From: a virus
IMG/VR virus record: IMGVR_UViG_3300010885_014835
Location: 1 to 34,737 of that record
Reading direction: 5' to 3' (one strand)
DNA length: 34,737 bases
This document shows, piece after piece, positions 1 through 29,148 of the stretch (positions are counted from its first letter, which is position 1; each line of letters begins with the position of its first letter). The notes under the pieces are model-generated. The model saw only the letters and a program-made list of their open reading frames with translations, searched no databases and had not been told where the DNA came from. Made by a program: the position numbers and the translations under genes.

Positions 1-1117
1 CTTTAATGTGCGGACCTCTAGGATCTGCTAATAAACTACGATTGCCTAAGGCACGAGGACCAAATTCTGCGCGGCCACTAGCCACCCCAACAATACCATC
101 GCTAAGCAAACTATCAAGTAATCTATTCGTCGGGTACGCTCCGCTAATTTCATGCCCAAGATAAGCATTATGCCAGTTAAGACGACGACCAAAGGCGAGG
201 GCTGCGGCGCCAAGACTACTACCAGCATCGCCGGGATTAGGCATAATCCAAATATTATCAAAGTATGCACCAAGACTCCTATTAGCTAAACAATTCAATG
301 CAACACCGCCCATATACACAAGATTTTTACTCCAATTGAGTTTTCTTGCACGATACATGACATTATATATTAAATTTTCTGTTAATTTTTGTGTAGATGC
401 AGCCAAATCATATTCATCTATATCACTAAATTGTGTTTTGTCTATTCCTAAATGAAGATTTTCTTTAAATAGAAGCGTGTATTCGTTCTCTATTATACGT
501 GACTTCATTTCGTTTTCATATGTAGGTTGACCATATGCAGCCATACCCATCATTATATATTCTTCATCTAGTGGTTGCAATCCAATTCGTTTAGTCATAG
601 CACTATAGAATAATCCAATGCTATGAGGATACTGCTGTTTCCACAATAATTTATAGCTAGCAGTTCCCATATGATTATACTCAGCACCCCAAATACTAAT
701 AGTGTCAAACTCACCTATCGCATCAATAACAACTACTGTTGCCCTAGTGAATGAACTTGTTTGAAATCCTGCTGCTGCATGACTGAGATGATGATTGTAA
801 GATTTTATTCGTTTGGGTTTATTAGGCAACCACGGAGCACATTCATCTTTTATAATTTTATTAACAGTGAGTTTCTTCCATTCAATTCCTTGTCCACTGC
901 GTAGTTGTCTTAATTGTTTAATAAGCGGTCGTTCATAGTAAGCAACAGTATCAATGTAATGACCCTTTATTTCATTAAGCAGGCCCATTGAAATATGAGC
1001 ATCGTGTTTGTTTTTACTATAGCGTTCACTGTGTCCGGCAAATACTATATCACCTTTGGGATTTACAAGGGTTATAGCAGCATCATGAAAGCCGCAGCTT
1101 ATTCCTAAAATACTCAT
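1..1117 (-). CDS. Carbamoyltransferase, NodU/TobZ family (3' end outside window)
   Basis: Enzymes of this family transfer a carbamoyl group from carbamoyl phosphate to a hydroxyl, usually on a sugar, through a carbamoyl-adenylate intermediate. The window shows 372 codons from the ATG with no stop. Visible marks are an ASKHA-type start (LGISCGFHDAA, residues 4-14), the metal/nucleotide-site histidines NHHLSHAAAG (108-117), MGGVALNCLANR (269-280), MPNPGDAGSSLGAA (292-305), and the family signature EFGPRALGNRSLLADPR (351-367), which lies at the start of the C-terminal domain. Family members are usually near 550-600 residues, so about 200 residues should lie left of the window. The ATG overlaps the TGA of the 34-residue gene before it (ATGA), and there is no clear ribosome binding site, so translation is probably coupled. 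It is the last visible member of an overlapping modification cassette. The family assignment is firm; the acceptor substrate is unknown. Confidence 0.93.
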   Translation of the reverse strand, partial: MSILGISCGFHDAAITLVNPKGDIVFAGHSERYSKNKHDAHISMGLLNEIKGHYIDTVAYYERPLIKQLRQLRSGQGIEWKKLTVNKIIKDECAPWLPNKPKRIKSYNHHLSHAAAGFQTSSFTRATVVVIDAIGEFDTISIWGAEYNHMGTASYKLLWKQQYPHSIGLFYSAMTKRIGLQPLDEEYIMMGMAAYGQPTYENEMKSRIIENEYTLLFKENLHLGIDKTQFSDIDEYDLAASTQKLTENLIYNVMYRARKLNWSKNLVYMGGVALNCLANRSLGAYFDNIWIMPNPGDAGSSLGAAALAFGRRLNWHNAYLGHEISGAYPTNRLLDSLLSDGIVGVASGRAEFGPRALGNRSLLADPRGPHIK

Positions 1118-1218
1118 TTGTATATGAATGGATCTTGTTTCTTTAGTTGTCTTAGCTTTTTACGGTAAGCGATCTCACGTATAATACTATTATATATTTG
1201 TTTAAAAAAATTAATCAT
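1114..1218 (-). CDS. 34-residue basic microprotein, unknown function
   Basis: A 34-codon frame runs from an ATG inside the last codons of the SGNH-like gene to a TGA that overlaps the carbamoyltransferase ATG. It fills the whole space between these two genes. The product is rich in Lys, Arg, Ile and Tyr and ends in DPFIYK; the middle (about residues 14-29, EIAYRKKLRQLKKQD) looks like an amphipathic basic helix. There is no signal peptide and no clear membrane span. I recognise no family with certainty; the DPFIYK ending resembles short basic proteins I associate with marine T4-like phages, which is memory and not a search. The double start/stop overlap is the main evidence that it is a real gene, possibly a small partner of its neighbours or a translational bridge. 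Confidence 0.68.
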   Translation of the reverse strand: MINFFKQIYNSIIREIAYRKKLRQLKKQDPFIYK

Positions 1219-2062
1219 TTAGTAAGTGTCCAAATTTAGTAAAAAAATTATCTGACATTGCGTGTTGACAGTAAGTACCAGGATGAGCACTTATTTCAGT
1301 TTTAGACATCTTAATAATATCTCTTCCCCAATTCAAATGTAATACTTTGGGATCCTGCTCAAGTATATAATATACAGGATGAAATTTATCCGGAACAGTT
1401 ATTCCTGTATATTTAGAACTAAAATCTTCTGATTGATATAACGTAGATTCATAATATGGAATTTTATTAGATTCACATATTATTTTAATAGCCGATCTTA
1501 TATATTTAAATCTATTATGTATATGGCTTTCTTCCATAATAAAGTCTTTGTATGCTTTGTTCCAATAGGTTGTTGCTCTTTCTTCGTTGTTTGGAATTAA
1601 GAATATAGGATCATTTTTATACCAATAAAATGTTCTAACAATCGCTGGCCAAACAAAGATAAAGCATTTTGGCTTCTTAGGAACTTTTTCAAAAAAGTGT
1701 AGGAAATTAGTATATACAAAATCGGGGCTAGCCCCACATATTGCACCATTAACATAGTCACACTTTGCACGTTTTGCTGTTATATAGGCAAATGAATCTT
1801 CTAATGGCATACCAATACCATAGGCATAGCTACATCCAAAAAATGCAATATAGTTATCATAGTCTACTTCGTGCATTTCTTTTTCCATACGATACCCTAA
1901 ATCATTCAATGTATATGTTACAGGTTCGTTATAGTAACGCCACTCAGGACCTAACTTTTCTCTATTCTTTTCAAAAAGTTCCTTAGTATCAGTATGTAGA
2001 AAATTAAAAGTTCCAAACTTTTCAGTCCAGGGACTTTCTATTAAAAAATCATTCCTTATCAT
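1211..2062 (-). CDS. SGNH/GDSL hydrolase-like protein
   Basis: A 283-residue soluble protein. SGNH-family members hydrolyse or transfer ester-linked acyl groups, often O-acetyl groups on glycans. Visible marks are a block-I-like nucleophile motif FFGCSYAYG (residues 74-82, Ser78), a block-II-like NGAICGAS, a beta-strand CFIFVWP in the place of the third block, and a late SAHPGTYCQH (258-267) that would carry the catalytic His260. The usual Asp three residues before this His is not seen (Ile is there, Glu one further away), so activity is uncertain. I chose the ATG at 2062 because it forms an ATGA overlap with the radical SAM stop and has GGAAAA upstream. An in-frame ATG at 2074 is the alternative. 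Its 3' end overlaps the 34-residue gene. A structural, non-catalytic SGNH fold is another possibility. Confidence 0.68.
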   Translation of the reverse strand: MIRNDFLIESPWTEKFGTFNFLHTDTKELFEKNREKLGPEWRYYNEPVTYTLNDLGYRMEKEMHEVDYDNYIAFFGCSYAYGIGMPLEDSFAYITAKRAKCDYVNGAICGASPDFVYTNFLHFFEKVPKKPKCFIFVWPAIVRTFYWYKNDPIFLIPNNEERATTYWNKAYKDFIMEESHIHNRFKYIRSAIKIICESNKIPYYESTLYQSEDFSSKYTGITVPDKFHPVYYILEQDPKVLHLNWGRDIIKMSKTEISAHPGTYCQHAMSDNFFTKFGHLLND

Positions 2063-3447
2063 AACGTTTTCCATTCTTCATACACTGATTTAAGCTCTGG
2101 AAATGTTTGTGTGAAATTTAAATTCTTTCTCTTATCATACTCAGTGATGAAGGATGCAAAATCCTTCCTATCTCTTTGTAGATCACTTTCGGGTATTGTA
2201 TGAGTTCTAAGTAAGTTGGCTATCATAGATAACTTATCTACGTCATCATGGAATAACATTCCAAAATGTTCTTTCTTCTCATCTTTGTGTTTTGCTATTA
2301 GTTGGTCTATTTTAGTTGCTGTTTTTTCTTTTAACTCAGTTGGAGCCAAGCACATATGCAAATAGGGCGGCCAACGTAGATAGTTAATACTTAATATAAC
2401 ATTATTATTAGTAAAACTCTTATAATACTTTTTCCTAAAACTTAATATATCTTCAACAAATATATCAAACGTACTTAGTGACATAACATTGATAGTAGTC
2501 ATTATGCCAATGAATGCATTTTTTGGCAAGCGTTGTATAAAGGTATCTAAGTTATCATACCATTGCACATAATTCATGCCATAACGAATGTATTCGGCTT
2601 GCCGACCAGTTGCCTCACAACTTGTGTAGATTTGTATTTCTTTTAGCTTTGGTGCTACACGTTCAACGTATTGAATGAATTTTTCTACTAAATTATCCGG
2701 AACATTCAAGTTAGTATTGATTGCTAGGATCAAGTTAGGGTTAGGATTTTCTTCAATCTTTGATAAGATATTCCATACATCTTTGCTAAGTAATGGTTCG
2801 CCGCCGGTCAATCGTAACGTGTTAAGGCTACTATAAAGTTCTGGCCACCATTTCCAAAATGCTTCAACATATGGATTATGTTCTTTGTTTGTGTACGGGT
2901 ACCTTTCTGTTTGCTTTAAGTATATTAAATCACCTGTATTCCAGCTAGTAGGATACGGCCCATGTTGTTGAATTTCTTCTAGCCACTTGCTGCTAACATC
3001 GGGTGTACAGTAAGCACATTTAAAATTACATACATTACTAAAACTAATCTCTAAGTATGTGGGATTTATATCAGCAGTTTTCTTTTCTATTATTCGGGGC
3101 ATGTTATCCCAAGCCCAATGCATACTAGACTTATAATATCTGTCACTAACATTATCGCCGCCCAAATCTTCAACTCGCCAGCAATAATCACACTCAGGTG
3201 GACGTTCACCGTCTAGCATCATTTGCATTTGTTGTTTTTTAAATTTAGTATTGTGCAGTGCTTTGTGATTTGCTTCTACTTCTTCTAATGGTATCTTATG
3301 TGGTGCTGGGTGATGACAGCTATGATTCCATCCGGTCTGTAAATATAATGTAGTTTGGAACCATTTGGCTGAACAAAAACTATCACTGACAGTATCAATA
3401 ATTTCCCAACGTTTCTTTAGTACTTCTCTTGGGTGTTGATATCCCAT
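2059..3447 (-). CDS. Radical SAM protein with additional N-terminal cysteines (twitch-type)
   Basis: A 462-residue enzyme with the canonical CxxxCxxC cluster motif CNFKCAYC (Cys140, 144, 147), which in this superfamily binds a [4Fe-4S] cluster and S-adenosylmethionine to make a 5'-deoxyadenosyl radical. It is followed by the SAM-contacting GGEP motif (LRLTGGEPLL, GGEP at 215-218). Before the core, Cys25, Cys44, Cys86 and Cys89 (PPECDYCWRVEDLG) form a pattern seen in phage and bacterial twitch-domain radical SAM proteins; whether they bind a second cluster is inference. The start overlaps the previous stop as TAATG, with GAGGG just upstream; the end overlaps the SGNH-like gene by ATGA. The substrate is unknown. 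Given its neighbours (glycosyltransferases, carbamoyltransferase), it may modify a sugar or a residue of a structural protein. The family call is firm. Confidence 0.9.
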   Translation of the reverse strand: MGYQHPREVLKKRWEIIDTVSDSFCSAKWFQTTLYLQTGWNHSCHHPAPHKIPLEEVEANHKALHNTKFKKQQMQMMLDGERPPECDYCWRVEDLGGDNVSDRYYKSSMHWAWDNMPRIIEKKTADINPTYLEISFSNVCNFKCAYCTPDVSSKWLEEIQQHGPYPTSWNTGDLIYLKQTERYPYTNKEHNPYVEAFWKWWPELYSSLNTLRLTGGEPLLSKDVWNILSKIEENPNPNLILAINTNLNVPDNLVEKFIQYVERVAPKLKEIQIYTSCEATGRQAEYIRYGMNYVQWYDNLDTFIQRLPKNAFIGIMTTINVMSLSTFDIFVEDILSFRKKYYKSFTNNNVILSINYLRWPPYLHMCLAPTELKEKTATKIDQLIAKHKDEKKEHFGMLFHDDVDKLSMIANLLRTHTIPESDLQRDRKDFASFITEYDKRKNLNFTQTFPELKSVYEEWKTL

Positions 3448-4391
3448 TACCAGCCCTCAATTCTTCGTATAACATCCATTTCACGCACTAAAGGACCTAA
3501 GTTGTGTTTATCTACATTGCAATGACGCTTAAAGAATTTACTTTGATCAGAAGTCATAGTACAAATAGGTAAATCTAAATTATCACTCAAAAATGTTCCA
3601 TAATACTCTGCAGTCAACAATGGATTGTTGTGTTTATGTTCTTCCCATAATTTAGAAAAATTATCAAACCATTGAACTTCTTTGTTATCCCAATCAGTTA
3701 GCATTGTCATGTATGTACCTAATCTTGCACCATAGATTGCCCAATCACCATTTTCTACATCAAGACCAATGTTATGCCAAATAGTAAGATTGTTTAAGTT
3801 TCTATTAGATACTGATTCCCTAAACTTCGCTACAGTTGGAACACGCCCGCCAACTAAACACATCTTTACACCTTCTCTAAAGCCAGCCCGCCATGCTTGA
3901 AATGAAGTAAAATTGGGATATGTTGTGCTATAGCAATCATGCATTGCCCAATAGATGTTATCACTGCTATCTAAGCAAAAGTCAACAGTGGTTGTTTCGT
4001 TACCATCACTTGCTTCGTGAGTTTTCATATTCATTACATATGTTTTAGTCCATGAACTCATTCCACCATTACCATATCTCAAACCGTTAATATTGTTAAT
4101 AGCTTTCCAACGATACTGAGCACGTTGATATACAGGTTCTTTATCAGTGAAATCTAATTGCATATTGAAGAAATCCTCATCAGGCATGTTATCACCGTCG
4201 ATCAATATGAATCTTTCTGTATCGCTTGCTTCTGCTGCTGCTTTATGTGCTGCATCACTTCCTTTAACTCCGTCAACACGTTTAGCCCAAGGAACCATGT
4301 TCTGAATCTTTAACCAAAATTCTTCTTTTTGAGGCTCATCGTAACTCAAATAGATACAATCTAAATCTGCTACATCAATTATGTTCGACAT
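3447..4391 (-). CDS. Glycosyltransferase, GT-A fold (phage family with DGDN motif)
   Basis: A 314-residue soluble protein. The N-terminal part has a GT-A Rossmann-like layout: LDCIYLSYDEP (10-20), a variable loop with HKAAAEASDTERF, and the metal/nucleotide-sugar motif ILIDGDNMPDEDF with a DxD at residues 65-67. The start resembles phage proteins annotated as family-2-like glycosyltransferases. The C-terminal half is Trp- and Tyr-rich and has conserved-looking blocks (GLRYGNGGMSSWTK, SFQAWRAGFREGVKMCLVGG), perhaps the acceptor-binding part. There are no membrane segments, so a cytosolic acceptor (a virion protein, a nucleotide-linked sugar or a precursor) is more likely than direct action in the envelope. 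It overlaps the 98-residue gene upstream by 17 bases and the radical SAM gene downstream by one base. Donor and acceptor are unknown. Confidence 0.78.
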   Translation of the reverse strand: MSNIIDVADLDCIYLSYDEPQKEEFWLKIQNMVPWAKRVDGVKGSDAAHKAAAEASDTERFILIDGDNMPDEDFFNMQLDFTDKEPVYQRAQYRWKAINNINGLRYGNGGMSSWTKTYVMNMKTHEASDGNETTTVDFCLDSSDNIYWAMHDCYSTTYPNFTSFQAWRAGFREGVKMCLVGGRVPTVAKFRESVSNRNLNNLTIWHNIGLDVENGDWAIYGARLGTYMTMLTDWDNKEVQWFDNFSKLWEEHKHNNPLLTAEYYGTFLSDNLDLPICTMTSDQSKFFKRHCNVDKHNLGPLVREMDVIRRIEGW

Positions 4392-4671
4392 GTTTATATA
4401 ACCAATAATTTGTTTTGTTTTTATATTCCGAATCTACTATAATGTTTATATCAAAATCACTGCACTGTGTTCCCTCATCGGATTTATAGTATTTGGAAAT
4501 AGTTAGTTTATGCTCTTTTTTTACAATCTCACCATTTTTTATCATTACGTTTGGGTCGCCCAATGCATATTTAAATGCACTAATTACCAAATAAGTTCCC
4601 TCAGGTTTCTCACATGTATAGAATAGTGCATTACCCGTTTCATCATAATATAATCTGTACTCAATTTCCAT
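4375..4671 (-). CDS. 98-residue hypothetical protein in the modification cassette
   Basis: I do not recognise this protein. It is 98 residues, mixed charged and aromatic, with probable beta-strands (EIEYRLYYDETGNALFYTCE, then TYLVISAFKYALG) and a basic middle (KNGEIVKKEHKLTISKYYK). It lacks a signal peptide or membrane span. The start is placed at the ATG at 4671 because AGGTGA sits five bases upstream; a GTG three codons earlier (4680) is in frame but less well placed. It overlaps the end of the glycosyltransferase before it by 11 bases and the start of the next by 17, so it is held inside the coupled gene chain. A small partner or accessory subunit of a flanking glycosyltransferase is plausible but unproven. 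Confidence 0.72.
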   Translation of the reverse strand: MEIEYRLYYDETGNALFYTCEKPEGTYLVISAFKYALGDPNVMIKNGEIVKKEHKLTISKYYKSDEGTQCSDFDINIIVDSEYKNKTNYWLYKHVEHN

Positions 4672-5458
4672 AGGCTTCACCTATTATAGTCGAAAAATTT
4701 TTAACATGATAATGAAACGGGTACCTTTGTGGGAATGTGTTTATCTTTAGATAGTCTTTTGATAGTTCAACTGTTAATTCAAGAGTCCAATCTTCTGATA
4801 ATAAACTGTTTATGTGCTGCTTCATATGAACCATACTCATGTCTGAAAAGGGTATTGTTGTGTTTTCAACTCCATGTATATGACATGCAATAGCATACAC
4901 CCAATCAGTTGTTGCTTCTTCATTTGGACTACATTTCAATATTTCTTTAAACTGATCCCAATCTTCAAATACTCTCCTAACGGTGTTAAAGAACTTTTCA
5001 CTAAATCTTGATTTCTTAAAGTATGTTATAGCATTGTAAGTATCGGGTAGTTTATTATCTAAAATAAATTTTCTATAGAATTTAGAACCAGACACTTCTC
5101 CTTTATAGCTCCTAATAGTTGTGCAAACCGCTATATCTTTATACTTTAATACATCCCACCAGTAATCGATGCTGCTAGGTATATACATGTCTGCTTCAAG
5201 TTTAATAGTTTGTTTAAACGGACTAGCTTCATATACTTGCCAGTCATTAATAAGCTTCCAATTACTTGTTGGTGCTTGATCACCGTAGGGTAACGGGATT
5301 ACATAATCAAATACATTACCATTGTATTCATTATCAGTTATTAATGCTACTTTGGCTCGCTTCATACAATTCTTAATACTGTATGCTAATCCTTCTGCAC
5401 ATTTAACATAATCAGTGTTAGTTGTGTTCTGTGCTAAAATAACGAATCCCTTAGACAT
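4661..5458 (-). CDS. Glycosyltransferase-like protein, paralogue A (EAD motif)
   Basis: A 265-residue soluble protein with a GT-A-like outline: GFVILAQNT at the start, a central strand KVALITDNEYNG (36-47), NVFDYVIPLP, and LEADMYIPSS where the metal-binding DxD would fall (EAD at 88-90). It aligns by eye over most of its length with the next gene upstream (5451-6251): both have an NT-x-Y-x-K start, an ITD strand, FDYVI/FDNII, a Trp followed by QxxE, an (E/D)xD-Y-I motif, and an AIAC segment in the second half. The two are therefore likely tandem duplicates. The first acidic residue of DxD is Glu here and Asp in the sister. GGAGATTATGT precedes the ATG, a good ribosome binding site inside the end of the preceding gene. 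Donor and acceptor are unknown. Confidence 0.72.
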   Translation of the reverse strand: MSKGFVILAQNTTNTDYVKCAEGLAYSIKNCMKRAKVALITDNEYNGNVFDYVIPLPYGDQAPTSNWKLINDWQVYEASPFKQTIKLEADMYIPSSIDYWWDVLKYKDIAVCTTIRSYKGEVSGSKFYRKFILDNKLPDTYNAITYFKKSRFSEKFFNTVRRVFEDWDQFKEILKCSPNEEATTDWVYAIACHIHGVENTTIPFSDMSMVHMKQHINSLLSEDWTLELTVELSKDYLKINTFPQRYPFHYHVKNFSTIIGEAYGN

Positions 5459-6251
5459 ACATAATCTCCATAAAATTATCTTTGTTAATCATATGAAAAT
5501 CTATGTCTTTAATATACATGTATTCTTTCTTTGGCTTTAATTCATTTTGATTAAAAATTTTGATTTTGTATTCTGTACCGAATAGTTCGTCAGACACATT
5601 TTCTACTATAACATCACGTCCTGCGTGAACTAGATTCCATGGGATAAAATCTGTAGATTCATTAAACTCTCCATTAACAATTTTACATGCGATAGCCAAT
5701 GCATAATCATTTCTAAAAGACATAGAATAAAACCCATGCAGTTGTGCGTAGAATTCATAATTGTCTTGAATCATTTTTATACAGTTAAAAATATGATTTA
5801 CTCTTTTTGTTTTTCTAAAGAAAATAGTAGTTGCCCAAAGAGCATTATAACTATGTACTCCCATGTGTTCTTGTGATGCATCAGGCACCATTAAATAGCT
5901 TGTTCTATTATGGCAGCAAAAATCATTATAAAAATCGAACACTTCGAGTAATTTAGTTGAGTTTACTATATAATCTGTGTCCAACAATAAAGTTTCATCA
6001 TACGGAGTTAACTCAAATGCTTGATAACGTCCTTTGTTATACCAAGGGTTTTTTTCTTTCATATTATCTTTATTGCTTTCCGTATAGATAATATTATCAA
6101 ACTCATACCCATTATAATTGTTAATATCGTCTGTGATCACACTTACAGGAAGATTTAGGAAGTGGTTGATGCGCTTTGCGGTTGCAATAGCCATCTTAAA
6201 ATAATTTACTTTTTCAGTGTTAAAAGCAAATAATAGGACCCCTCTGGTCAT
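5451..6251 (-). CDS. Glycosyltransferase-like protein, paralogue B (DTD motif)
   Basis: A 266-residue soluble protein resembling GT-A glycosyltransferases: GVLLFAFNTEKVNYFKMA at the start, the strand PVSVITDDINN (35-45), YEFDNIIYT, and LLLDTDYIVNS with a proper DxD (91-93). The second half has ALWATTIFFRKTKR and DYALAIACKIVNG, typical of the acceptor side in this type. I placed the start at the ATG at 6251, which forms an ATGA overlap with the stop of the 102-residue gene. An ATG eight codons earlier (6275) is in frame and would enlarge the overlap. It is the sister of the adjacent 265-residue protein. The nucleotide sugar and target are unknown. Immediate proximity to the fibre genes makes glycosylation of a tail protein a reasonable hypothesis. 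Confidence 0.75.
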   Translation of the reverse strand: MTRGVLLFAFNTEKVNYFKMAIATAKRINHFLNLPVSVITDDINNYNGYEFDNIIYTESNKDNMKEKNPWYNKGRYQAFELTPYDETLLLDTDYIVNSTKLLEVFDFYNDFCCHNRTSYLMVPDASQEHMGVHSYNALWATTIFFRKTKRVNHIFNCIKMIQDNYEFYAQLHGFYSMSFRNDYALAIACKIVNGEFNESTDFIPWNLVHAGRDVIVENVSDELFGTEYKIKIFNQNELKPKKEYMYIKDIDFHMINKDNFMEIMYV

Positions 6252-6556
6252 CGATTTTTCTTTAGTTTTTCCCATTCGACTAGGTAATCATTCATTACAC
6301 TTTGATACGTATTAATAGCTTTTTGTAAGAATTTGGATCTATTGATTTTTACTGGGTTCTCGTAAAGATCAAGTAACACTATTTCATCTGGTATGTAAAC
6401 AGACGATAATAATGTAATTAGTTCAGGTGAGATTTTCCAAAGCCCGCCCTGTTCAGCAATTATCAATTTACTTTGATACTTGTCTTTTAGGTAGGCTTTG
6501 GTTGAATTATAACTGAATTTAGCTTTTGCTTCGGTAATTAGATCCTTGGTATCCAT
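6248..6556 (-). CDS. Small tail-associated protein, possible fibre assembly chaperone
   Basis: A 102-residue protein, helical and charged, with no signal peptide or membrane span. It starts MDTKDLITEAKAKFSYNS, continues with AYLKDKYQSKLIIAEQGGLWK, and ends with a helix rich in Lys, Glu and Trp (DYLVEWEKLKKNR). This style resembles short proteins found beside tail-fibre genes in T4-like phages of aquatic bacteria (my recollection, not a search). Size, charge and position just after two fibre-like genes suggest a fibre folding or assembly helper, but no catalytic motif supports a function. Its AGGAG ribosome binding site seven bases before the ATG lies inside a perfect hairpin (6557-6580). Its stop overlaps the next gene by ATGA. 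It begins the nine-gene overlapping chain. Confidence 0.75.
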   Translation of the reverse strand: MDTKDLITEAKAKFSYNSTKAYLKDKYQSKLIIAEQGGLWKISPELITLLSSVYIPDEIVLLDLYENPVKINRSKFLQKAINTYQSVMNDYLVEWEKLKKNR

Positions 6557-6580
6557 ATAAATACTCCTGCGAGTATTTAT
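6557..6580 (-). promoter_or_regulatory. Perfect 10-bp hairpin covering the ribosome binding site of the 102-residue gene
   Basis: The two arms ATAAATACTC (6557-6566) and GAGTATTTAT (6571-6580, plus-strand reading) are perfect complements around a four-base loop. On the transcribed strand the AGGAG ribosome binding site spans the loop and the 3' arm, and the ATG follows directly. Long transcripts reading in from the fibre genes could fold and hide the site. A transcript starting at the late-promoter-like motif overlapping the 5' arm would lack that arm and stay open. In T4, gene e uses this kind of early-hairpin, late-promoter switch; its operation here is inference. Confidence 0.6.
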
Positions 6581-6581
6581 T
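6574..6581 (-). promoter_or_regulatory. Late-promoter-like motif AATAAATA before the 102-residue gene
   Basis: AATAAATA reads on the minus strand 17 bases before the ATG, in a 48-base gap. T4 late promoters carry TATAAATA, and T4-like cyanophages a relaxed version. It overlaps the 5' arm of the hairpin. A start six or seven bases downstream would leave a very short leader with the AGGAG near its 5' end. Confidence 0.4.
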
Positions 6582-6604: not shown

Positions 6605-7606
6605 TTATCTTAAATAACCCGGGGTACTTGCGGTTCCAACCTGCCCTGATACGGCTGGTGTTCCCCATGTATTTCTTAGGTATGTTGTGCTAGGTGGTCT
6701 AACTGTAATAGTTACGTTTGTACCTGCACTAGCAACAAACCTTGAGCCGCCGTCAGGAACTTCATTGAATTTAGTAACGATATAAATGACATTACCCGTG
6801 TCACCATTTGAACCACGTGTTCCGTTTGTTTTTATATTCACATTAATATAGCTGTTTAGGTACATATAAGATCCATAAGCAGCAGTTTGTTTGAATACTT
6901 CTTTATAGTTTGCATTCAATGAATAGTAACCTGCATTTGGAACAATAACTCTAGGCCTAGACGTTTGTGTTTCGACTATTTGTGTAATTCCGCTGTATTC
7001 AACTCCTGCAATACTAACTGTATCAGCATACGGCGCACTTAAAACAATTGTACCGCAATCTTTTGATAATCTATCCCATAGACCGTTAATACCACTACCG
7101 TTAGGATGATCAAAATTAATTGCAATTTGTCCACCCGCATTGAAGAAATATCTAGCAGCATCGCCTGTTGTAAAAGTTACTGTGTGAACAAATACCATTT
7201 GATCGGACCAAGTTCTTTGTGAAACTGTTTTTACTTTATATGTTGAATCTTGTCCTGAGGCATTATTTCTATGATTATAAATGTTAGAAAGATTGTTTGC
7301 AAAGGCTGATGACGGGGTTCCTGAACTGGCTGCAACTTTACCACCAGATACAGTTGTAGTCATGCTAGTAATCAAAGTTCCTTGATGATTTGCGGTTTTC
7401 GCTATATTTGTTATTAATTCATTCCATTGGGCACTAGACACAGTTGACCCAACAGATGCTTGCGTAAGTGCAGGTTGTCCATATCCTGACCTGCCGTTAC
7501 CGGTTGCCCAAACCGTATTGAATGCATTTGCAGTAGTTCCAGGATCAGATCCAATAAAAGTATTGTAATCTGAAGCTTGTATTAACCCGTATTGCAGAAA
7601 TGGCAT
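6605..7606 (-). CDS. Tail fibre or tail-tip structural protein
   Basis: A 333-residue virion-type protein. The N-terminal 70 residues (FLQYGLIQASDYNTFIGS, then GTTANAFNTVWATGNGRSGYGQPAL) are of a type seen at the start of phage tail fibres from aquatic myoviruses. A Ser/Thr/Ala-rich middle follows (about 85-115). From about 125 the protein is rich in beta-strands (VHTVTFTTGDAARYFFNAGG, NPNGSG-like loops, GTIVLSAPY), like a receptor-facing knob. It ends TVRPPSTTYLRNTWGTP with a Gly/Thr/Ser tail. It has no enzymatic motif. A GRSGYGQ segment is shared with the adjacent 403-residue fibre. AAGGAAAA precedes the ATG, which lies 12 bases after the previous stop. Role in host binding is inferred from position and composition. 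Confidence 0.75.
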   Translation of the reverse strand: MPFLQYGLIQASDYNTFIGSDPGTTANAFNTVWATGNGRSGYGQPALTQASVGSTVSSAQWNELITNIAKTANHQGTLITSMTTTVSGGKVAASSGTPSSAFANNLSNIYNHRNNASGQDSTYKVKTVSQRTWSDQMVFVHTVTFTTGDAARYFFNAGGQIAINFDHPNGSGINGLWDRLSKDCGTIVLSAPYADTVSIAGVEYSGITQIVETQTSRPRVIVPNAGYYSLNANYKEVFKQTAAYGSYMYLNSYINVNIKTNGTRGSNGDTGNVIYIVTKFNEVPDGGSRFVASAGTNVTITVRPPSTTYLRNTWGTPAVSGQVGTASTPGYLR

Positions 7607-7618
7607 AGTTTTTTCCTT

Positions 7619-8830
7619 TTATCTTATAATTACTATGGCTTCAACCATGCCTAAACCATCAGTGGTTTTACTCGCTAAGCTTCTTCCTATTGTATTAAAG
7701 GCAGTTGCTTCATCTTCACGTGCAGCACGTGCATATCCTTTACCTGCACTAACTAGTCGGTCACCCTTTTTGACAATACCCTTTACTTTTACTTGCACTC
7801 GGCCGCTGATAGCTACTGGCGGGTGAGTATTATCATTTCCTGCAATAGAGTTCATTAAATATGCAGCAGTATTGCTGATAACTCCAAATATTTTGTCGCT
7901 TAAATCTTCTTTTACTGAGGTGATTTCTTTATCACCGCCCAACTCTACTACAGTGCCAGGATCATATATATCGTCAGCTTCAAATCTTTCCGCTAAGTCA
8001 GCAAATGTAGCTTGTAATCTTGCACCGGTTTCAAGAGTCCAAATACCTTCAATTTTTCCGCCACCTGCAAGTCTAGTAGTTGTTACTTTTGTAGGAGCTA
8101 TATTACCTGCGAACTGGGAAACGCCGTTAGCACCAGTCAAATAATCAGACACACTTTGATTTGTGTAGGTGCCTGTTGGGGTAAATCTTGCACCATTTGC
8201 ATACATGTAATTGTCGCATTTGATACCATTAACACTACTAGAAGCGAATGAAATATTTCCTGTTGATACTGATAACGCATTAGCAGATGATGAACCATAT
8301 AGTGTCCATTGTCCTGTTAATGATCCTGTTGTAGTTGTACTTCCTGTAGTAATAACCTGTGTTCTAATTGCTGACAGATTAGCTGTAGTGATGTCTGCAT
8401 TTAACGCAGTTAGTGTAGCACTCACATTGGCTAATCTTACATCTATGGTATCACTAGTAATTGCATTATTAGAAATTATATTGTTAGCAGTTAAGTTTCC
8501 AGTAACTAGTACGTTAGCTAGGGTTGCAGTTCCCGATGCAGTAGTTGTTGTTAATGTTAACCAATCTGAAGCACTGTTCGTGTTGTCAGCAGGGCATACA
8601 TTTAATGTCTGTTGTTGTGTATTAAACCATAGCTGACCTTTTAAAGGATTTGCGGGAGGAGTAGTACTAGCATAATTTTCTAGTTGTCGAACAAAGTTCG
8701 TGTTTAATGCTTGACCGTATCCCGAATAACTTCTGCCGGGAAGAGCCAATGATGTGCTGGTAGTGTTAATTGTACCATCTTGTATGGTAGTTAATGTACT
8801 TCCATCACTTCTAATAATCGTATAAGCCAT
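7619..8830 (-). CDS. Tail fibre protein with conserved phage C-terminal domain
   Basis: A 403-residue fibre-like protein. Residues 1-85 form an N-terminal module (SLALPGRSYSGYGQALNTNF, then PPANPLKGQLWFNTQQQTL) that I recognise as common in fibres of T4-like aquatic phages. The middle is repetitive and rich in Thr, Asn, Ala and Ser (about 90-275), as in a trimeric beta-structured shaft. The last 120 residues begin FADLAERFEADDIYDPGTVV and continue with SGRVQVKVKGIVKKGDRLVSAG, a domain frequent at phage fibre C-termini. It resembles the intramolecular chaperone/autoproteolytic type, but I cannot confirm a cleavage site. The ATG has GGAG seven bases upstream and a GATAAATA motif 20 bases further up, so it may have its own late promoter. 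Confidence 0.82.
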   Translation of the reverse strand: MAYTIIRSDGSTLTTIQDGTINTTSTSLALPGRSYSGYGQALNTNFVRQLENYASTTPPANPLKGQLWFNTQQQTLNVCPADNTNSASDWLTLTTTTASGTATLANVLVTGNLTANNIISNNAITSDTIDVRLANVSATLTALNADITTANLSAIRTQVITTGSTTTTGSLTGQWTLYGSSSANALSVSTGNISFASSSVNGIKCDNYMYANGARFTPTGTYTNQSVSDYLTGANGVSQFAGNIAPTKVTTTRLAGGGKIEGIWTLETGARLQATFADLAERFEADDIYDPGTVVELGGDKEITSVKEDLSDKIFGVISNTAAYLMNSIAGNDNTHPPVAISGRVQVKVKGIVKKGDRLVSAGKGYARAAREDEATAFNTIGRSLASKTTDGLGMVEAIVIIR

Positions 8831-9479: not shown

Positions 9480-9637
9480 TAATCGTCGCCTCTTTGATGG
9501 ACTAAAATCTCATTCGTGTTTGGATCAAAAATTTTAACCGAAGAACTAAATGCAAAACCGCCGTGTTCCTGCGGTTTTGAGTCCGTATTTTCTTTGGTTT
9601 TTTCGTCTAAATTCTTCTGATTTATACTATCGTTCAT
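9479..9637 (-). CDS. 52-residue protein related to the N-terminus of the next structural protein
   Basis: A 52-codon frame fills the space between the giant gene and the 206-residue gene; its TAA overlaps the next ATG (TAATG). The first 25 residues are hydrophilic and rich in Lys, Glu, Asp and Asn. The last part, SSSVKIFDPNTNEILVHQRGDD, matches FLKAYDPNTGEILVDKKNA at the start of the following protein, so the two share a small beta-hairpin-like module. It could be a small baseplate subunit, a duplicated and shortened relative, or a connector for the giant protein. There is no good Shine-Dalgarno sequence: AAAGATAAATAAAATAAT precedes the ATG. The shared motif and exact coupling make it likely to be real. 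Confidence 0.75.
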   Translation of the reverse strand: MNDSINQKNLDEKTKENTDSKPQEHGGFAFSSSVKIFDPNTNEILVHQRGDD

Positions 9638-9654: not shown

Positions 9655-12600
9655 TTATTTTGTACCCACTCTAAGGAATCTTGCAGGATAGAAATCACTG
9701 ATTTGTAACAAATCTCCATTACCTCTAAAATTCTCACTATTCCAAGATTTATCATAATAATACGTAGGTAAAATGTTTCTAGGAGTAAGTCCAGAAACAG
9801 TTACATACGTGTCATGCACTCGTTTGGTTCCTGTTCCGTCTATTCCGCGAGTGATTCCCAAAATAGTATTATTTTGATAATTTACGGATTTGAATCGTAC
9901 CTTTTCGCTACCTACATAAATTGTATCCCCTAAACGAATCGATACAGTAACCTGATCACCTACATCAACTCCATTTTTAAACTTAACATAAATCCTAGAG
10001 TTTTTTGACAATAGTATGTGGTCAGAACTGCTCAGCGCAGAGAGAGAAGTTACATTGAACACGCTTACTTGTTTAATGGCTGCAATATCATAATCTAACC
10101 ATACACCCAATACGTCAGTGTCTATCTCAATAACCTCACTATTCAATGTAGCCATATCAATTAGGACTGAGACATCATCAACATAGATAGTATTATCTAG
10201 GAATTGCAATGGTTTAATTAACCATGTCCTATTAGCACCATTTGATCTATACACTGTGGGTTGTCCGTTCTTATCTATGTCGATATTAAATATCATGCCA
10301 TTGGGACTAGCATTTCCGATCATACTAGTAATTAAGATATCATCAGTATCAGACAATTCTTTCAGTATAGACAGTTTGTTTCCAGCACCCAATCTTAATA
10401 AATTTGGATGTATGCGCTGTCTATTAACACTCACATAAAGTCTTTGGTTGTTAGTTAAATCAAAATTGCCGGGCTGAGATATTTCTATAGTGTCAGAATC
10501 TTTCCAAATGTACCCGCCCCCTAGATATCCGGATAATACGCCCTGAGAACGTACAGGACTAGTTAATAACGTATCATTGTATAGAACCACAGAATAGTAT
10601 GTTATGCCATCTGTGGTGCTTACTGTAATAATATCACCATTTACTAGAGTTGCATTAATTGTTAGTGTTGCCTTTAATGGATCTGTTGGATTTGGTGTTA
10701 AATCCCAATCTGCTGTTGGTATAGTTGATGCATTTTTCTGAACGGTCGTTGTTCCAAAATCTTGTATCTGACTATATAACAAATCAAATACGTTAGTACC
10801 TGCATAAACTAATGTCTGTATTTCTGGTTTAGTGAACCCAGAGGATACACTAGCATAGTAAGCATTATCATTAAGCTGTGTAGTTCCTTTGATACCATCA
10901 ATTCTAACTAAATCGCCATCTACAAAACTTGGTTGCTTTCTTACAACAAGAACTGGTACAGCAAAACTAAAATCAATAGACTCTATGCCGTTTATTCTTA
11001 GATTTTTTACTTCGGTGACTAAAGATTGCTGTCGTGTATCATTAAAAGTAGTAACTGAGATGAGATCGTCGGCATTCATCCCGAACAATATAGTCAGTGT
11101 CCCGATTAAGCTAGTAGGATTTACGGTTAAAGTATAATCTACATTTTTTGTAAGTCTATAACCATTGTATTCTACTATTGCATTTACATTATTTGTGTAA
11201 CTTACTGGTCCATTTACAGTAAACACATTAGATGCGGTATATGCAAACATTTCTGTAATAGGTAAACTATAACCGTATTGTTCAGTTATGGAATATTCTA
11301 CATAGTTAACTCTAGTATTTCCTAACACCGCAAATGACAGGAAATCAATCTTAGGATCATAAACTGCCTTGAACAATATTTTAGCTTGTTTATCACTATG
11401 AGTTACTACATCATAATCTATCGAATATCGTAGTGGCGATCCGTTACGATAAACAATAGGGGTTGTGTAAAATTCAGCTTCATACTTATAGCCTAATAAT
11501 ATTTCACTATTTCCAGTAACTGAATCTATACGAATAGGTATATTTTGTGAGGTTGATCTAACTAAATGATTTCCACCGCCTATCTCATAAACTTCGATGT
11601 AAACTTTTTCAGTAATTTCTACGTTGGTATTAAACGTAACTGTCTTATTGATCCAATCTATGGTATATGTATAAGGATTAGTTACTGTTGGTGTAATATT
11701 TTCATATATTCTTATTCCTGTTTCCTTTACTCTATCAAACACGAATACTTTAAGTTGAACTGGATTTTCGGCGGCACTTGCAAAGCTTATAGGTTTGTTT
11801 GCCAACAATGACTCGATTACTGATATGTTAAATCCAGTAAATGGTATTAGGTCTTGCGGCCACGTTGCGCCGGGTTTAGTTATAACACTAATAGAAAGAT
11901 GATCGGCAACATTACCCGCTATTAACTCTTCGGGGCCATATCCTGCAGTAAATTTGTCACCGTGTATTTCAAAGAAGGCATGTGGTGTTTTAACAAAACT
12001 AACATCTTCCCAAATTATACCATCATAGCTTCTTAAAATAACAGCATTGTTACCTGTTATAATAAAATGATCCTCATTATAAGTAATTGAATTTAAGTTT
12101 TGAGTTGTGTTTGACTCAGTGTGACTCCATGATATACCATCATAACTAATTAGGATCGATCCACTTTCACCAACAAGCACATAGGTACTATTGGCAAAAA
12201 TTCCACCTAATATATTATTAGTATATGAATCATCAACTATATTTGCAGGCGACCAATTCAATCCGTTATCTGTGTAGAAAATAACACCTTTGTCACCTGC
12301 AATAATTATTCTATCATCCGATGCAAACACAATGTTAAATGAACTTTGGCACAAATAGGGCTTTTGCTCTTGCCAGTCGAAACCAGTCGAACTGGTAAAT
12401 ATTCTACCTACAAGGTGTTCTTGTGTTGGTATTTCTACTCCCGGTTCTGACTCACCAATAGTAGTAACAACGTACCCTCCACCTACCGCAATGTATCCTT
12501 GGAAAGAGCTAAGTGTAATATACTTGATTGATTTTAATAAATTTTCTAATTTAGTGTTAAAGTTATAAATTTCTTGCCAACTGTTTCCATTTGCACTTGA

Positions 12601-15600
12601 AACAATTCTATCCCCTACTGCAATATAAACATTGTTATGAAATACTACACTATACAACGATGAATCAGGAACAATTACCGAACTGTCATCAAAAGTATCA
12701 CCATCAAAACCTCTATTGCTATCAAAAGGCACAAATATGCCTGCTGTTAGCCAAGACAACCCGTCATGACTTATCACTAACGGACTCTTTTTGTTTGTAG
12801 TAGTGGCCACATAATATGTTTCGCTGTAATAAATGTCAGTAACTCCCAAATGCTTGTTACTTATATTTTTATAGCCCCATGTCACACCGTCATCACTTGA
12901 CATTAAAATTGTATGAGTTTTGGTATCTGCAACAGCAAGATATTCAGAACCACTATGTGTAATTCCCTTAATATTGATATCAGCTGGATAGAATGGTAAT
13001 GCTGCAACTTTAGTTTCTATTGGTGTTGTTTCATTGAATTTAGTACCGTAATAGGTATTATTAGAATATTCAATACCAGAAACTAACATAGGCAAGTTTC
13101 TTCCCGGCATATTTGCTGTGGGTTGATAATATCCTATAATTCTATCTAATGCATTTAATTCGTCATCATGGCTTAGAACTTCTTCCCACTTGTCAAAATC
13201 AAATGTAGAGTCATTATTACTAGTTAAACAACGGTATACTTTATTATTGTATCGTACCAATGAAGCAGGTGATCTTGTATATCCAGTTGTTATGATAACA
13301 GGTTCAGGTAAGTAAACCCAATCAGTATTTGTGTATATCATGTTAACGGATTTAACTGGACGTACCATTGGCGCATCATAGAATATGTTAAATTCTGTAT
13401 CGCTAATAGGATTCACGTAATACCTATCAAACATTTTAGGTGCGATACCTGTCAATTCATATATGCTTATACCTCCACCAGGATCCGACACATTTGCTTT
13501 AGGTGCATAAACAATTTTAAGTAATGCATCATTTGTTCCGTCAACACCACCCAACAATGAGCCTTTAACTCTTATTTGATCATCAGTGTGATATATGGTT
13601 CCCGGATCAATGATATTGATAAAATATTCATTAGTTAATCTATCAGAACCAAAGTTAGGTTTGTAGAATTCAATGGTCGCTGACCCTGTGCGTTTTGCGG
13701 TACCAGTTCCTTGCTTAGCAAGACCGTCACCTGTTCCTATACCTGTTGCAGTAAACGCAGTTCCAATAGTATTATTGGCTGCACCAATTAACTTGAAGTT
13801 TGTTTTTCCGATATAAGTGATTATATATCTTTTTCCGATAACAAAATTACCTGACTCTACTAATCCAGTACCAGTAGCAGTGAATGCTGTTCCTATACTA
13901 TTATTGCTTGCACCGAGCAATCTATAATCGGTGTTACCAACTGTTCTTATAGTATAATTTTTTCCTACCACAAAGCTTCCGGAAGTTATAATGTCTTCCC
14001 AAATATATGAAATTGGGTTCTTATAGAAATACACACGCAGTCCCTTCAATTGAGCGGACACCACATTTGTATCAGCAAAGGTAACTTCAACCTTTGTATT
14101 TTCTTGAGAATTGTCAACTGATGTAATATCAATTCTAGCGCCTTGCATACTTGCGCGGTTTTTAAATTCATTCGCAGGAGAGACATAAGGTGTTCCCGAG
14201 AACACACTGGCTGCAGTGATTCTTCCGGATCCGTCAGTAGCATCAACATTAATAACTAAATCATTAGCAGGTGTTGTACCATTTAATACTGTGCCTTGTA
14301 TAGTAATTTTATTGTTTACGCTATACCCTCTACCCGAAAATTGTAATTCTATCCCATATATGTTTTCATAGACATAACCATAAACAATAAATCTAGCCAA
14401 ATCCCCGTTATGAGCAGATGTAGTACCTGAAATGTCTGATGCAATTTTAGTTGCCTTACTTAAATTATCACCTAAACTAGATTCAAATCCACTAGGAGTA
14501 AATTGACTAAAATAAAACACACTAGCTTTCCAATCAGTAATGACACTACGGTAACTAGTTCTATCAAATTTAATTTTAGTAGTTAGTTCTCTTACAGGAC
14601 TGTTATTACCAAAAGCAATTATTCTTGCAGTAAGTTGTAATACATGGCTTGTACTATTTCCTACCGTAGTCAAGTCTATTCTATGATTATCATTCATAGC
14701 ATTAATTTTGCTCTCATAGAATGCTATTTGTGATGTTAGATTTAATACTTCTAATGGGTCATCTTGTTTAACTACACGAACATAATAATACTTTCCGTTA
14801 TCTAACCCTTTAATCTTTCCATTCGTACCGTTAACGAATTGAACGCTATCACCGGTAACGAAAATAATACTACCAAGATTAACAGTATTTTCAATTTGAT
14901 TAACATCAGTTGCATTAAATATTATCGTCTTTGATGGTTGAATAATAATTTCTGGTTGTGTTGTATACCCGGCGCCCGGATCTACTACTTGAACTCCAGT
15001 AACTCTACCATTAGTCATAATAGGTTCTAGGTTTGCTACTCTAGTTGGCTCAGGATAAATGGCAGTGTCTATGTATGCAGTAATAACTGGAGGATCGATG
15101 TAATCTCTTCCTGTTTCAAGTACGATTGCTCCCGGTAAATCTATGTAAATTTTACTATGTGGGAAATGTGCAACCACCGGTGTGCCATTTACACCTCTAG
15201 TTATATTATATAAAATATGATTATCTCTATCTATATCTTGATATCCTATAAACTCGTCATCTATTTTTATAATACCGTTATTGGGGAATCCATATGCGGT
15301 GTCAACATAAATCTTATTACCAATTGTTCCCATGTACCTAGAAAGATTGGTTATTACATAATTTGATTGACCTAATAATGATAGTCCGTAATTTGCAAAC
15401 CAGTCAGAGAACAGGGAGTTTGACCAAATTTTATTTGTAGGTAAATACCTTGCTGCATCAACTTGAGGATTTTGAAATACTAAATTAGGTATGACAAAAT
15501 TGTTTTCGGTACTATTATAAATTGCAGGCAAGTCAAAGTCACTAATTTTGCCGCTGTAGGTCTCTGAGGTTTCATACTTAATAGCAAAGTCTTTAATCAC

Positions 15601-18600
15601 TACGTGATATGGTTTAACCTCGTTAATGAAACCTTCTAAGAAAATCTGATTGTCAGGTTGATAAGTTCTGTCTTGAGCCAATGTTCTCAACGTATGCCCA
15701 ATATCAACAAAACTTGTTTTATTTAACCACGGCAGATATCCCATGTTGTTATTTGCTTCACTTGCAATGTATTCAAACAACAATATCAAACTCTTATTAC
15801 GATGCACACGTAATGCACCTGTGTAAATTTCTTCATTTAACGCTCGTAAGATATATCTAGTTTCAGTAGATGGGAATTTGTCATAGTTGTTAGTATCGAA
15901 AAATTGATTTCCAAAGCCAGTAGATCCTGCATTATAATCCCATAATGTGTTTTTAATCTGTAGTGTACCCTGCTCAAGACCAACACGAATCCATGCACTT
16001 CCGTCATACGTATATACTTCACGTTTACCGTCACTATTTTCTGTAACACCAACGACCATTCCTTTGGTTGCACTTTGTCTTGCTAAGTCATAGTATCTAG
16101 GTACCTCAACATCAATTTTTGTTTTATTACTATACCCAGTAGCCCACCAATAGATATACTCCCAGTATTGAGTTGTGTCAAAATCAATACCTGAAGCTAA
16201 AAATAAAGCAGGGGCACGTCCTGTTGACATACTATTTGTGTTCGTTGCTATGTTTAAAAAGCTAGGTATCTTGAATTCAGCAACAGGGTATTGCTTTAAT
16301 ATTGAGTTTGCGTAATTACAATAATTACCAAGTGCTTTTAATCTATCAATAAAGAAACTTTGCCTTGGTCTGATCCCCATACCTGTTTGCAACATTTTAG
16401 GTAAGTATGGGTCCGGAACTACTTGTCCTTGTATATCTAACCCAGCTAAGCTATCAAGTAATTTTTCATACAATTCTTTTGGATCGTTGTAGTTTGTATA
16501 CGCTGTAGGGAACCCACTTAAGAAGTCATCTTCATGTCCATCACGTAATAATGCAAATGAATTCTGTGATGGTTCTTCTATATCAGTATTGCTGAATCGT
16601 ATGGATAAGCTAGTACTAGTGTCGTTTATGTATTCTCTGCTATTATAAATACCAAATACATTTGGTTTCAATGCAGTCATATAAGAAATGCCTGATTGCT
16701 GTGGATTAGCAATGTATTCTTCTAATATTTTATCGCTTAATGTTTTTCCGTGGTCACTAAAAATAGTGTTAGTATTTCTTACCCAATAGTAGAATCTGTT
16801 AACTAATGCACCCGTACTATCTATTTTATAGTGGTTAGTGTATGATCCAACATCATATGGTGTTCCTGATCCTGTATAATCAATAGGAGCCTTATCACTC
16901 TCAATCCAAGAATAAACTGCAACTGTACTATTTGGAAAGACTTGACCCCAATGCTTGGCATTATACATTATATCATTTTGATGATAGTTAACAAATCGTG
17001 CATTAGTGACATCAAACCACAAAGAACCTAATTGATTTTCGCCCCAAACAAAATTCATGTTAGGACCAGTAGTATTGGAATATCCCGCGGGATCATGTGC
17101 TGCGATAAAATCAATATTTTGATTTACAACTCCAAGCATCTTTCCTTGTAGGGGATCAATGTAATCTAATGTTTCTAATCTCTCATTTGTATTATTGTTA
17201 TATAAATGTACAGAATGTATTCTGTTTACATCCACTATCTTTTCTGATTTTCTATAAATATTCCAGTTGTTTTGATTTGTCTTGCTTGTATAAACAACAA
17301 CTCTTCCGTTAACTGTACCTAATCCATAGTCGGGGCATCCAATCATTAATGTGTGTCCGTTAAATGCTAACACTTTTCCATAATGAGGATTTGACTTTAA
17401 TACTGTTGTTAAGTCGTTTACAGTTTGTCCAAACACAAACTTACCAATATCATTAATACTTTCATTAGGTATAGATAGATAGTCGTAAATATATGCGGTG
17501 CCTGCAGTCTCAAACTTATCTATAAACTTAGTAAAACCATTGTCAAACAATGTATCATTGTCATTGTTTTCATCGTCTGTTGTATCAAATGTAGTTGATA
17601 AGAACCTATCTGCAACCGGTGCACCTACTGCAAATGATCCGTATTCGTTAAACTTAACTGAATACCCAAATTGTGTTGAACCTTGATTGTTTATGTCATG
17701 AATTGTTTGAGTTTTTACATACTCGTCAATCTGTAGGTTAGTTAATGTGGCTTTATCAAACGTAGTAATCGTAAGTTTATTATTAATCTGCCCAAAAGTA
17801 GCATCAATCAGTTTTAATGTTAGTGTATTATCAACATTTTTGATTGCTTTTATATTGGGAATACCTGCAGAATTAATTTCACTAACTATATCATCCAATC
17901 CGGTTTCGGGCAATGTAACTCCGAATCCATTGATTAAAATAGGGACTGGCATAGATATTTCAGGAACTGCCTTGCTCTTTACAACACCAAACTTTTTAAG
18001 TTGATTTGTATATCTATACACTGTTCCTTCAACATTAGTTGAAGTTAAATCGAAAGGGGCACCTATTAATAATTCAGTTCCGGTTGTATTACAATCTAAA
18101 CTATGACCAAACAACACACCGGGTCTAATACTACTAAGTTCTTGGTATGACTGTAGTTTTTGTGTATGTACAAAGTTTGAAGAATTAATTTCAACTACTT
18201 CTCCCACAGACACATGCGTTAATATAGTAACTTTGGTAACAGTATTATTTCCAACTGTTATATTCGATAATTCATATTCTGCTGACTCTAACTGTTTGTT
18301 ATTGATCGAAACTGTTATTTTATCTGTGTTGCTTATATCATCAGCTTGCCATAACATTACAAATTCAGTTTGCAGTCCTTCTATTAGAAAGTCTTTTTGT
18401 ATAAATTTCTGAACAACTCTATCAAATACATAAGTATATCCCACGTTCACTAAATTGTTATCATAATTTTCCCACGGAGAACCCACAAATAACTTAGTAC
18501 CGTCATAGTTTGTTGCAATGCTTTGTCCAAAATTATCACTTACCTCTACCCAATCCGGGTCAATCCACGTATTTAATATGGTATCACGGGTTTTTGGTTT

Positions 18601-29132: not shown

Positions 29133-29148
29133 AAAAACCGACGGTTTT
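29133..29148 (-). terminator. Weak hairpin with T-run at the end of the gp25-like gene
   Basis: On the minus strand AAAACC, a three-base loop GTC, GGTTTT and one more T follow from within the TAA stop of the gp25-like gene. The stem is six pairs, four of them A-T, so it would be a weak or leaky intrinsic terminator at best. Confidence 0.35.

Follow-up and report, generated by a model that had tools for sequence, protein, structure and literature searches.

The window analysed here is an entire linear contig of 34,737 nucleotides (34.7 kb; IMG/VR record IMGVR_UViG_3300010885_014835) with all of its main genes on the minus strand. Its left part holds a cassette of nine overlapping open reading frames (ORFs), running from position 6556 to the contig end, for a small protein (H102), three glycosyltransferase-like proteins (GT1, GT2 and GT3), a protein of variable length (V), a radical S-adenosylmethionine (SAM) enzyme (rSAM), an SGNH-type protein, a 34-residue microprotein and a carbamoyltransferase. 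As an original prediction made from the DNA letters had proposed, the nine ORFs lie behind the tail-fibre genes (Table 1) and all the overlaps it described are real, the junctions from h102 to the carbamoyltransferase being, in order, ATGA, 8, 11 and 17 bases, TAATG, 4 or 16 bases, 8 bases and ATGA. The sole real gap is the 48 bases preceding h102, and it contains a late-promoter-like motif within a start-codon hairpin. The carbamoyltransferase ORF is cut by the contig end, indicating that the operon extends further than the window shows.

Profile and fold comparisons agree with the three glycosyltransferase assignments. Against the PDB, the GT2 profile matches the GT8 enzyme glycogenin-1 at an E-value of 1.8e-6 and the GT1 profile does so weakly (E 0.012); residues D99/D101 (DxD) of GT1 and D90 of GT2 are invariant in alignments, and both proteins appear to be remote, glycogenin-type GT8 relatives. 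GT3 belongs to a family with no Pfam or NCBIfam model and has no PDB sequence match by profile. Its DxD motif (D65, D67) is invariant, and leading PDB fold matches to its structure model (predicted local distance difference test, pLDDT, 85.6) are mostly glycosyltransferases (E 2.8e-4), with the PBCV-1 glycosyltransferase to which glycosylation of the major capsid protein is ascribed, TarP and SunS, a protein S-glycosyltransferase, at the top and the Che8 glycosyltransferase among the viral matches; we predict that it adopts a GT-A fold. V occupies one slot but spans 92-446 residues across relatives with a weakly shared N-terminus; longer members carry repeats, one of them with a weak CBM_5_12 match, and searches returned no informative PDB match and only weak, scattered Pfam matches. 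AlphaFold2 predicts a small fold for H102 with confidence (pLDDT 92); its nearest named viral Foldseek matches are DUF4376 phage proteins (many, E 0.02-0.1), with no Pfam match and no convincing PHROG match. The DUF4376-like fold and the place before GT1 fit the earlier idea of a small fibre-type helper, a role that is itself still unproven.

The family calls for the remaining enzymes stand as well. Within the block Pfam recognises only the carbamoyltransferase (PF02543, 129 bits; PF16861, 40 bits, its C-terminal domain being truncated where the contig stops) and the radical SAM protein. The latter scores 319.5 bits against NF033640, for which the cut-off is 170, and has seven invariant cysteines, three in the CxxxCxxC motif (C140/C144/C147) and four N-terminal (C25/C44/C86/C89). 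The SGNH protein has no Pfam match, yet its profile finds GDSL esterases in the PDB (E 2.8e-6) and its GxS and (R)D..HPG motifs are invariant, as are S82, D252 and H264. Such N-terminal-twitch (N-twitch) NF033640 enzymes were also seen in 13 of 13 large contigs, at 1-21 copies each (including G001, L013 contig, 518 kb).

We evaluated conservation of the block using relatives found by scans with rSAM (496 confirmed), GT1 (at least 593) and P206 (at least 581), taking the best 80 loci from each; counts refer to the 144 non-redundant relatives that remain when GT1 is clustered at 95% identity, with denominators that vary by gene. GT2 is downstream of GT1 in 141/141 relatives and GT3 in 129/129, whereas upstream lie the fibre gene FIB333 (138/139) and, immediately adjacent, H102 (137/143). 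The H102 alignment is too variable for a collection scan, so a single sequence was used, and in all 48 loci anchored in this way GT1, GT2 and both fibres are present. In 100 non-redundant relatives that share this order exactly, the junction overlap is kept in 95% for H102-GT1, 100% for GT1-GT2, 98% for GT2-V and 87% for V-GT3, which argues that the overlaps in the window are not due to chance. Gene order thus points to fibre-fibre-H102-GT1-GT2-V-GT3 as the conserved core, and hundreds of uncultured giant freshwater and marine phages (contigs up to 525 kb) appear to carry this operon directly behind baseplate and tail-fibre genes.

After GT3 the content varies, and includes rSAM arrays, GT3 paralogues, SGNH types, UDP-glucose dehydrogenase, carbamoyltransferase, nucleotidyltransferase/kinase, cupin isomerase and aldolase-like genes; of the nucleotide-sugar enzymes in these sets, UDP-glucose dehydrogenase is the clearest and the isomerase, nucleotidyltransferase and aldolase types are weaker. 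A twitch-type rSAM is downstream in 78/82 relatives, at 0-6 copies. The window order rSAM-SGNH-microprotein-carbamoyltransferase recurs in one relative (L026) and is similar in another (L128), and these four genes are best described, from their distribution, as a variable tailoring module outside the core. rSAM was rejected as a core member as it is absent from five loci (L170, L176, L181, L184 and L187). The original prediction made its pathway idea depend on co-occurrence of the genes in relatives. They do co-occur, and a multi-gene cassette (fibre-H102-GT1-GT2-V-GT3) is conserved, but the nine-gene set is not fixed. Three P206 contigs (L210, L214 and L221) have no cassette, only a FIB403 match after P206; they may be frame-damaged because many short ORFs follow, and true absence is also possible. 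A second architecture (loci L016-L021, L052, L055, L061-L063, L066-L069 and L076) has N-twitch rSAM arrays and LamG-fused glycosyltransferase-like proteins (f10, f17) with no GT1-GT3 core, often followed by a sheath-like gene (f26). Neither GT1 nor GT3 has a match in 50,697 isolate-phage records, and rSAM gave only 24% matches in the isolate-phage search; the cassette so far seems visible mainly in metagenomes. We found no paper joining phage, radical SAM, glycosyltransferase, tail fiber and carbamoyltransferase, and no description of the operon.

Pseudomonas phage PA5oct (MK797984) provides the closest point of reference for the fibre genes. It has the same order of giant protein, small ORF, P206, two FIB403 genes and FIB333, but its operon stops after FIB333, and H102, glycosyltransferase and rSAM profiles found no match in the PA5oct proteins searched; H102, the glycosyltransferases, V and rSAM are all missing from the operon. 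The FIB403 homologues are EST35_0124/0125, the second described as "baseplate wedge subunit and tail pin", and FIB333 corresponds to EST35_0123 (E 6e-51); in the PA5oct record all fibre-region proteins except the small ORF are annotated as detected by electrospray tandem mass spectrometry (ESI-MS/MS), and one is a T4 gp10-like tail pin. A fibre operon that lacks the cassette suggests that the cassette represents an addition downstream of a known operon of virion fibre genes. The 5345-residue ORF of the window takes the same place as the large PA5oct protein EST35_0128 (ESI-MS/MS), and the small ORF that of EST35_0127; the C-terminus of the latter ORF in the window, SVKIFDPNTNEILVHQRG, resembles the P206 N-terminus.

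The start of h102 may place the cassette late in infection. The T4-type late-promoter-like motif AATAAATA (6574-6581) lies in the 5' arm of a hairpin. The 3' arm of this structure covers the h102 Shine-Dalgarno sequence and, by way of an outer stem, the start codon and next codons. TAAATA occurs within 50 nt upstream of h102 in 89/178 relatives, compared with 11.5 expected by shuffling, and peaks at -22/-21; the literal TATAAATA motif is near chance in spacers and over the window, only the positioned core being enriched, and a scan for sigma-70-like promoters gave chance level. As the hairpin register shifts among relatives, we used a swap test in preference to a column-based consensus fold: the upstream arms of 53 non-redundant motif-bearing leaders pair with their own coding starts at 8.07 and with those of others at 6.73, the own-start value being reached in 0 of 5000 permutations in a test that takes the sequences as unrelated and does not correct for kinship. 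These leaders indicate that the hairpin coevolves with the first codons of h102. Predicted unpairing of the start codon is 0.10 in read-through transcripts and climbs to 0.81 in those that begin at the late promoter (0.35 and 0.78 for the window leader). At FIB403 in the same clade the motif is present (95%) but the hairpin is not, and the other cassette genes have neither. The late promoters of T4 gene e lie in the 5' arm and yield transcripts that escape a start-hiding structure, with soc and 49 being related cases (PMC3014915); there, as at h102, RNA structure hides the ribosome-binding site and/or the start codon. Unlike the T4 hairpins, that of h102 heads an operon of overlapping glycan genes in a different phage group. 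By this likeness the promoter would be used, and the cassette translated, late, alongside virion assembly.

The 34-residue microprotein, which had been listed as a gene, proves to be a genuine one. It is upstream of the carbamoyltransferase in 62/62 non-identical loci, directly before it in 37 and 0.3-1.4 kb away in 25, and its 61 unique sequences have a ratio of nonsynonymous to synonymous substitution rates (dN/dS) of about 0.08, so that a spurious ORF was rejected; DPFIY is invariant, in part owing to the search pattern. In an independent DNA-pattern scan, 63 of the 73 microprotein-like ORFs with room have a carbamoyltransferase within 3 kb downstream, with none detected near the other 10, and in some relatives the DPFIY tail is fused onto the preceding protein. 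Family members end in RKRDPFIYK (window 1114-1218; loci L322-L401 and L402-L481). Assignment to DUF5989 (PF19451) was rejected, since four carrier contigs searched at E 10 gave no match and neither did five microproteins. The microprotein thus appears to be a real conserved family linked to the carbamoyltransferase, perhaps as its partner or docking peptide.

Table 1 Features of the window and the evidence for each.
Feature	Position	Strand	Basis or context
gp5-like hub/lysozyme	29597-32383	-	T4-like baseplate module
gp25	29147-29593	-	T4-like baseplate module
gp6-like wedge	25705-29097	-	T4-like baseplate module
5345-residue protein	9655-25692	-	Between gp6-like wedge and P206, baseplate module
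Small ORF	about 9480-9637	-	Between giant protein and P206
P206	8859-9479	-	Precedes FIB403
FIB403, baseplate/tail-pin fibre with C-terminal Peptidase_G2 (intramolecular chaperone) domain	7619-8830	-	Pfam PF11962; PA5oct homologues
FIB333, Ser/Thr-rich low-charge fibre protein, best candidate acceptor	6605-7606	-	PA5oct homologue; upstream of GT1 in relatives
Start hairpin over h102 Shine-Dalgarno and start codon	6548-6591	-	AATAAATA in 5' arm
H102 (h102), small helix/hairpin protein, probable fibre-associated helper	6248-6556	-	Predicted fold; position before GT1
GT1, GT8-like glycosyltransferase	5451-6251 (alternative upstream ATG 6275)	-	Alignment; glycogenin-1 profile match
GT2, GT8-like glycosyltransferase	4661-5458	-	Glycogenin-1 profile match
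V (u98), variable-length protein in fixed GT2/GT3 slot	4375-4671	-	Position; weakly shared N-terminus
GT3, predicted GT-A-fold glycosyltransferase with invariant DxD	3447-4391	-	Predicted fold; alignment
rSAM, radical SAM enzyme with N-terminal twitch domain (NF033640)	2059-3447	-	Profile score; invariant Cys
SGNH/GDSL-type hydrolase or acyltransferase	1211-2074 (or 2062)	-	Motifs; PDB profile matches
34-residue basic microprotein with C-terminal DPFIYK	1114-1218	-	Carbamoyltransferase-linked family
NodU/CmcH-type O-carbamoyltransferase, truncated by contig end	1-1117	-	PF02543, 129 bits; phrog_1601

Several lines of evidence suggest, with a probability that we put at roughly 0.58, that the cassette serves large myophages as a late-expressed operon for glycosylating fibres. 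GT1 would use nucleotide sugars of the host to begin a glycan on the fibre protein FIB333 and/or FIB403, and GT2 and GT3 would extend it, with H102 and V serving as acceptor helpers, so that the late-made set yields a short glycan. Its sugars may then be altered by rSAM through a radical reaction, by the SGNH protein moving an acyl group and by the carbamoyltransferase, assisted by the microprotein, adding O-carbamoyl groups; the likely benefit would be changed receptor binding or shielding of the exposed fibre. The missing membrane machinery bears on the acceptor. No protein of the window block has a membrane-type segment, as had been noted for the glycosyltransferases, and only 3 of 566 cassette proteins do (a set that includes near-identical contigs). 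Among contigs of 200-525 kb, a search for flippases, initiating transferases and polymerases detected PF13440 in none of 8 and PF02397 or PF04932 in none of 13, with control genomes positive, and neither Wzx/Wzy nor Gtr-type machinery, including a multi-pass glycosyltransferase, was found in the cassette proteins or large contigs searched. The lack of these functions in large relatives favours a soluble acceptor, probably a fibre, and argues against a self-contained lipid-linked surface-glycan pathway. Of the earlier suggestion of a soluble acceptor such as a fibre, the solubility of the proteins stands and the fibre is still what we infer.

Some observations weigh against fibre glycosylation. 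The glycan itself is so far a prediction from the genes. FIB333 is 22% Ser plus Thr in the window (family mean 25.6%), and its PA5oct homologue is likewise rich in these residues although that phage lacks the cassette, so that composition does not identify the acceptor and was rejected as proof of it. TM-scores for the GT3 fold matches are low (0.26-0.37, relative to the query), and the likeness is therefore at the fold level only. Chromosomal relatives of GT3 in Ruegeria, Tateyamaria and Halobacteriovorax adjoin glycosyltransferases or polysaccharide-type genes. GT8 enzymes without membrane segments also build the outer core of lipopolysaccharide (LPS) and could use host export, making it possible that the cassette encodes peripheral glycosyltransferases acting on host LPS. 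More broadly, chromosomal GT3 relatives occur in Ruegeria, Tateyamaria, Cribrihabitans, Bdellovibrionales and Halobacteriovorax-type genomes, several beside glycosyltransferase or radical SAM genes; four loci on chromosomes of predatory bacteria, Bdellovibrionia/Halobacteriovoraceae (L086, L089, L106 and L107), combine a GT3 relative with a 63-64% identical twitch rSAM and two more radical SAM genes (f9, f34).

The strongest alternative, which we consider unlikely, is that the glycosyltransferases and the enzymes that follow them reshape host LPS or capsule at a late stage of infection, so that superinfection is prevented or progeny are kept from re-adsorbing, with the fibre linkage arising from co-selection of receptor binding and receptor masking. 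Consistent with it are the GT8 membership of GT1 and GT2, the surroundings of the chromosomal GT3 relatives, the carbamoyltransferases among sugar genes in isolates P-SSM2 and HTVC008M and, a further point against fibres, comparable pelagimyophage islands whose GT8 genes have been read as modifying the host O-chain (PMC7029224). However, no flippase, initiating transferase, polymerase or multi-pass glycosyltransferase was found, the fibre linkage holds in 138/139 relatives, and an element allowing only late translation fits virion work better than early exclusion. We regard as improbable a scheme in which the protein and not the sugar is tailored, rSAMs modifying fibre side chains in the manner of ribosomally synthesised and post-translationally modified peptides and the glycosyltransferases then acting on those residues; the prevalence of twitch-type rSAM (78/82 relatives, 1-21 copies per large contig) and a weak resemblance, at the level of domains, to WgkB and other peptide maturases fit it, but some cassettes have no rSAM, the top PDB profile match is MoaA and not a peptide maturase, and a precursor-peptide gene was not seen. 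Glycosylation of phage DNA or a small molecule, near late genes by history alone, is very improbable: phage glycosyltransferases often modify DNA, an option listed for the four core glycosyltransferase orthogroups of moraphages (PMC12619734), but it fits poorly with the near-invariant fibre linkage, late-type control, acyl and carbamoyl tailoring and the lack of isolate matches to GT1 and GT3.

The proposed fibre glycosylation has partial precedents. Mycobacteriophages of the Che8/Corndog type likewise encode glycosyltransferases that are believed to act on proteins of the virion (Freeman et al. 2023, cited in PMC12619734), and the Che8 enzyme is among the GT3 fold matches; there, glycans are shown on capsid and tail-tube C-termini, whereas here the link is to baseplate fibres and is known from genes. 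The cassette further differs in its fixed glycosyltransferase order, helper and radical SAM/SGNH/carbamoyl tailoring, with no sequence homology shown between the systems. The pelagimyophage host-recognition cluster similarly combines tail fibres, GT8 and radical SAM cassettes in one variable island, but the portion consulted describes it as LPS-modifying and reports no conserved operon, start hairpin or microprotein (PMC7029224). Moraphages, large aquatic jumbo phages, have four core glycosyltransferase orthogroups of unknown role, set beside GT1-GT3 by description only, and the corresponding portion describes no operon, fibre link or tailoring module (PMC12619734).

More tentatively, and at somewhat less than even odds, a large jumbo-phage clade, so far uncultured, may possess a dedicated fibre-glycosylation operon with a fixed acceptor-helper-glycosyltransferase core, fast-exchanged radical SAM/SGNH/carbamoyl tailoring, late-promoter gating embedded in a hairpin and an obligatory DPFIY microprotein for the carbamoyltransferase. 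On this reading the chemistry of the fibres, as well as their sequence, would be hypervariable. The conserved unit is small enough for reconstitution in E. coli. If fibre glycosylation is correct, N-twitch radical SAM enzymes would gain a role and the phage carbamoyltransferase a testable partner. Many abundant aquatic phages would also alter host recognition or exposure by rewriting fibre sugars, and host-range prediction based on sequence would miss such changes.

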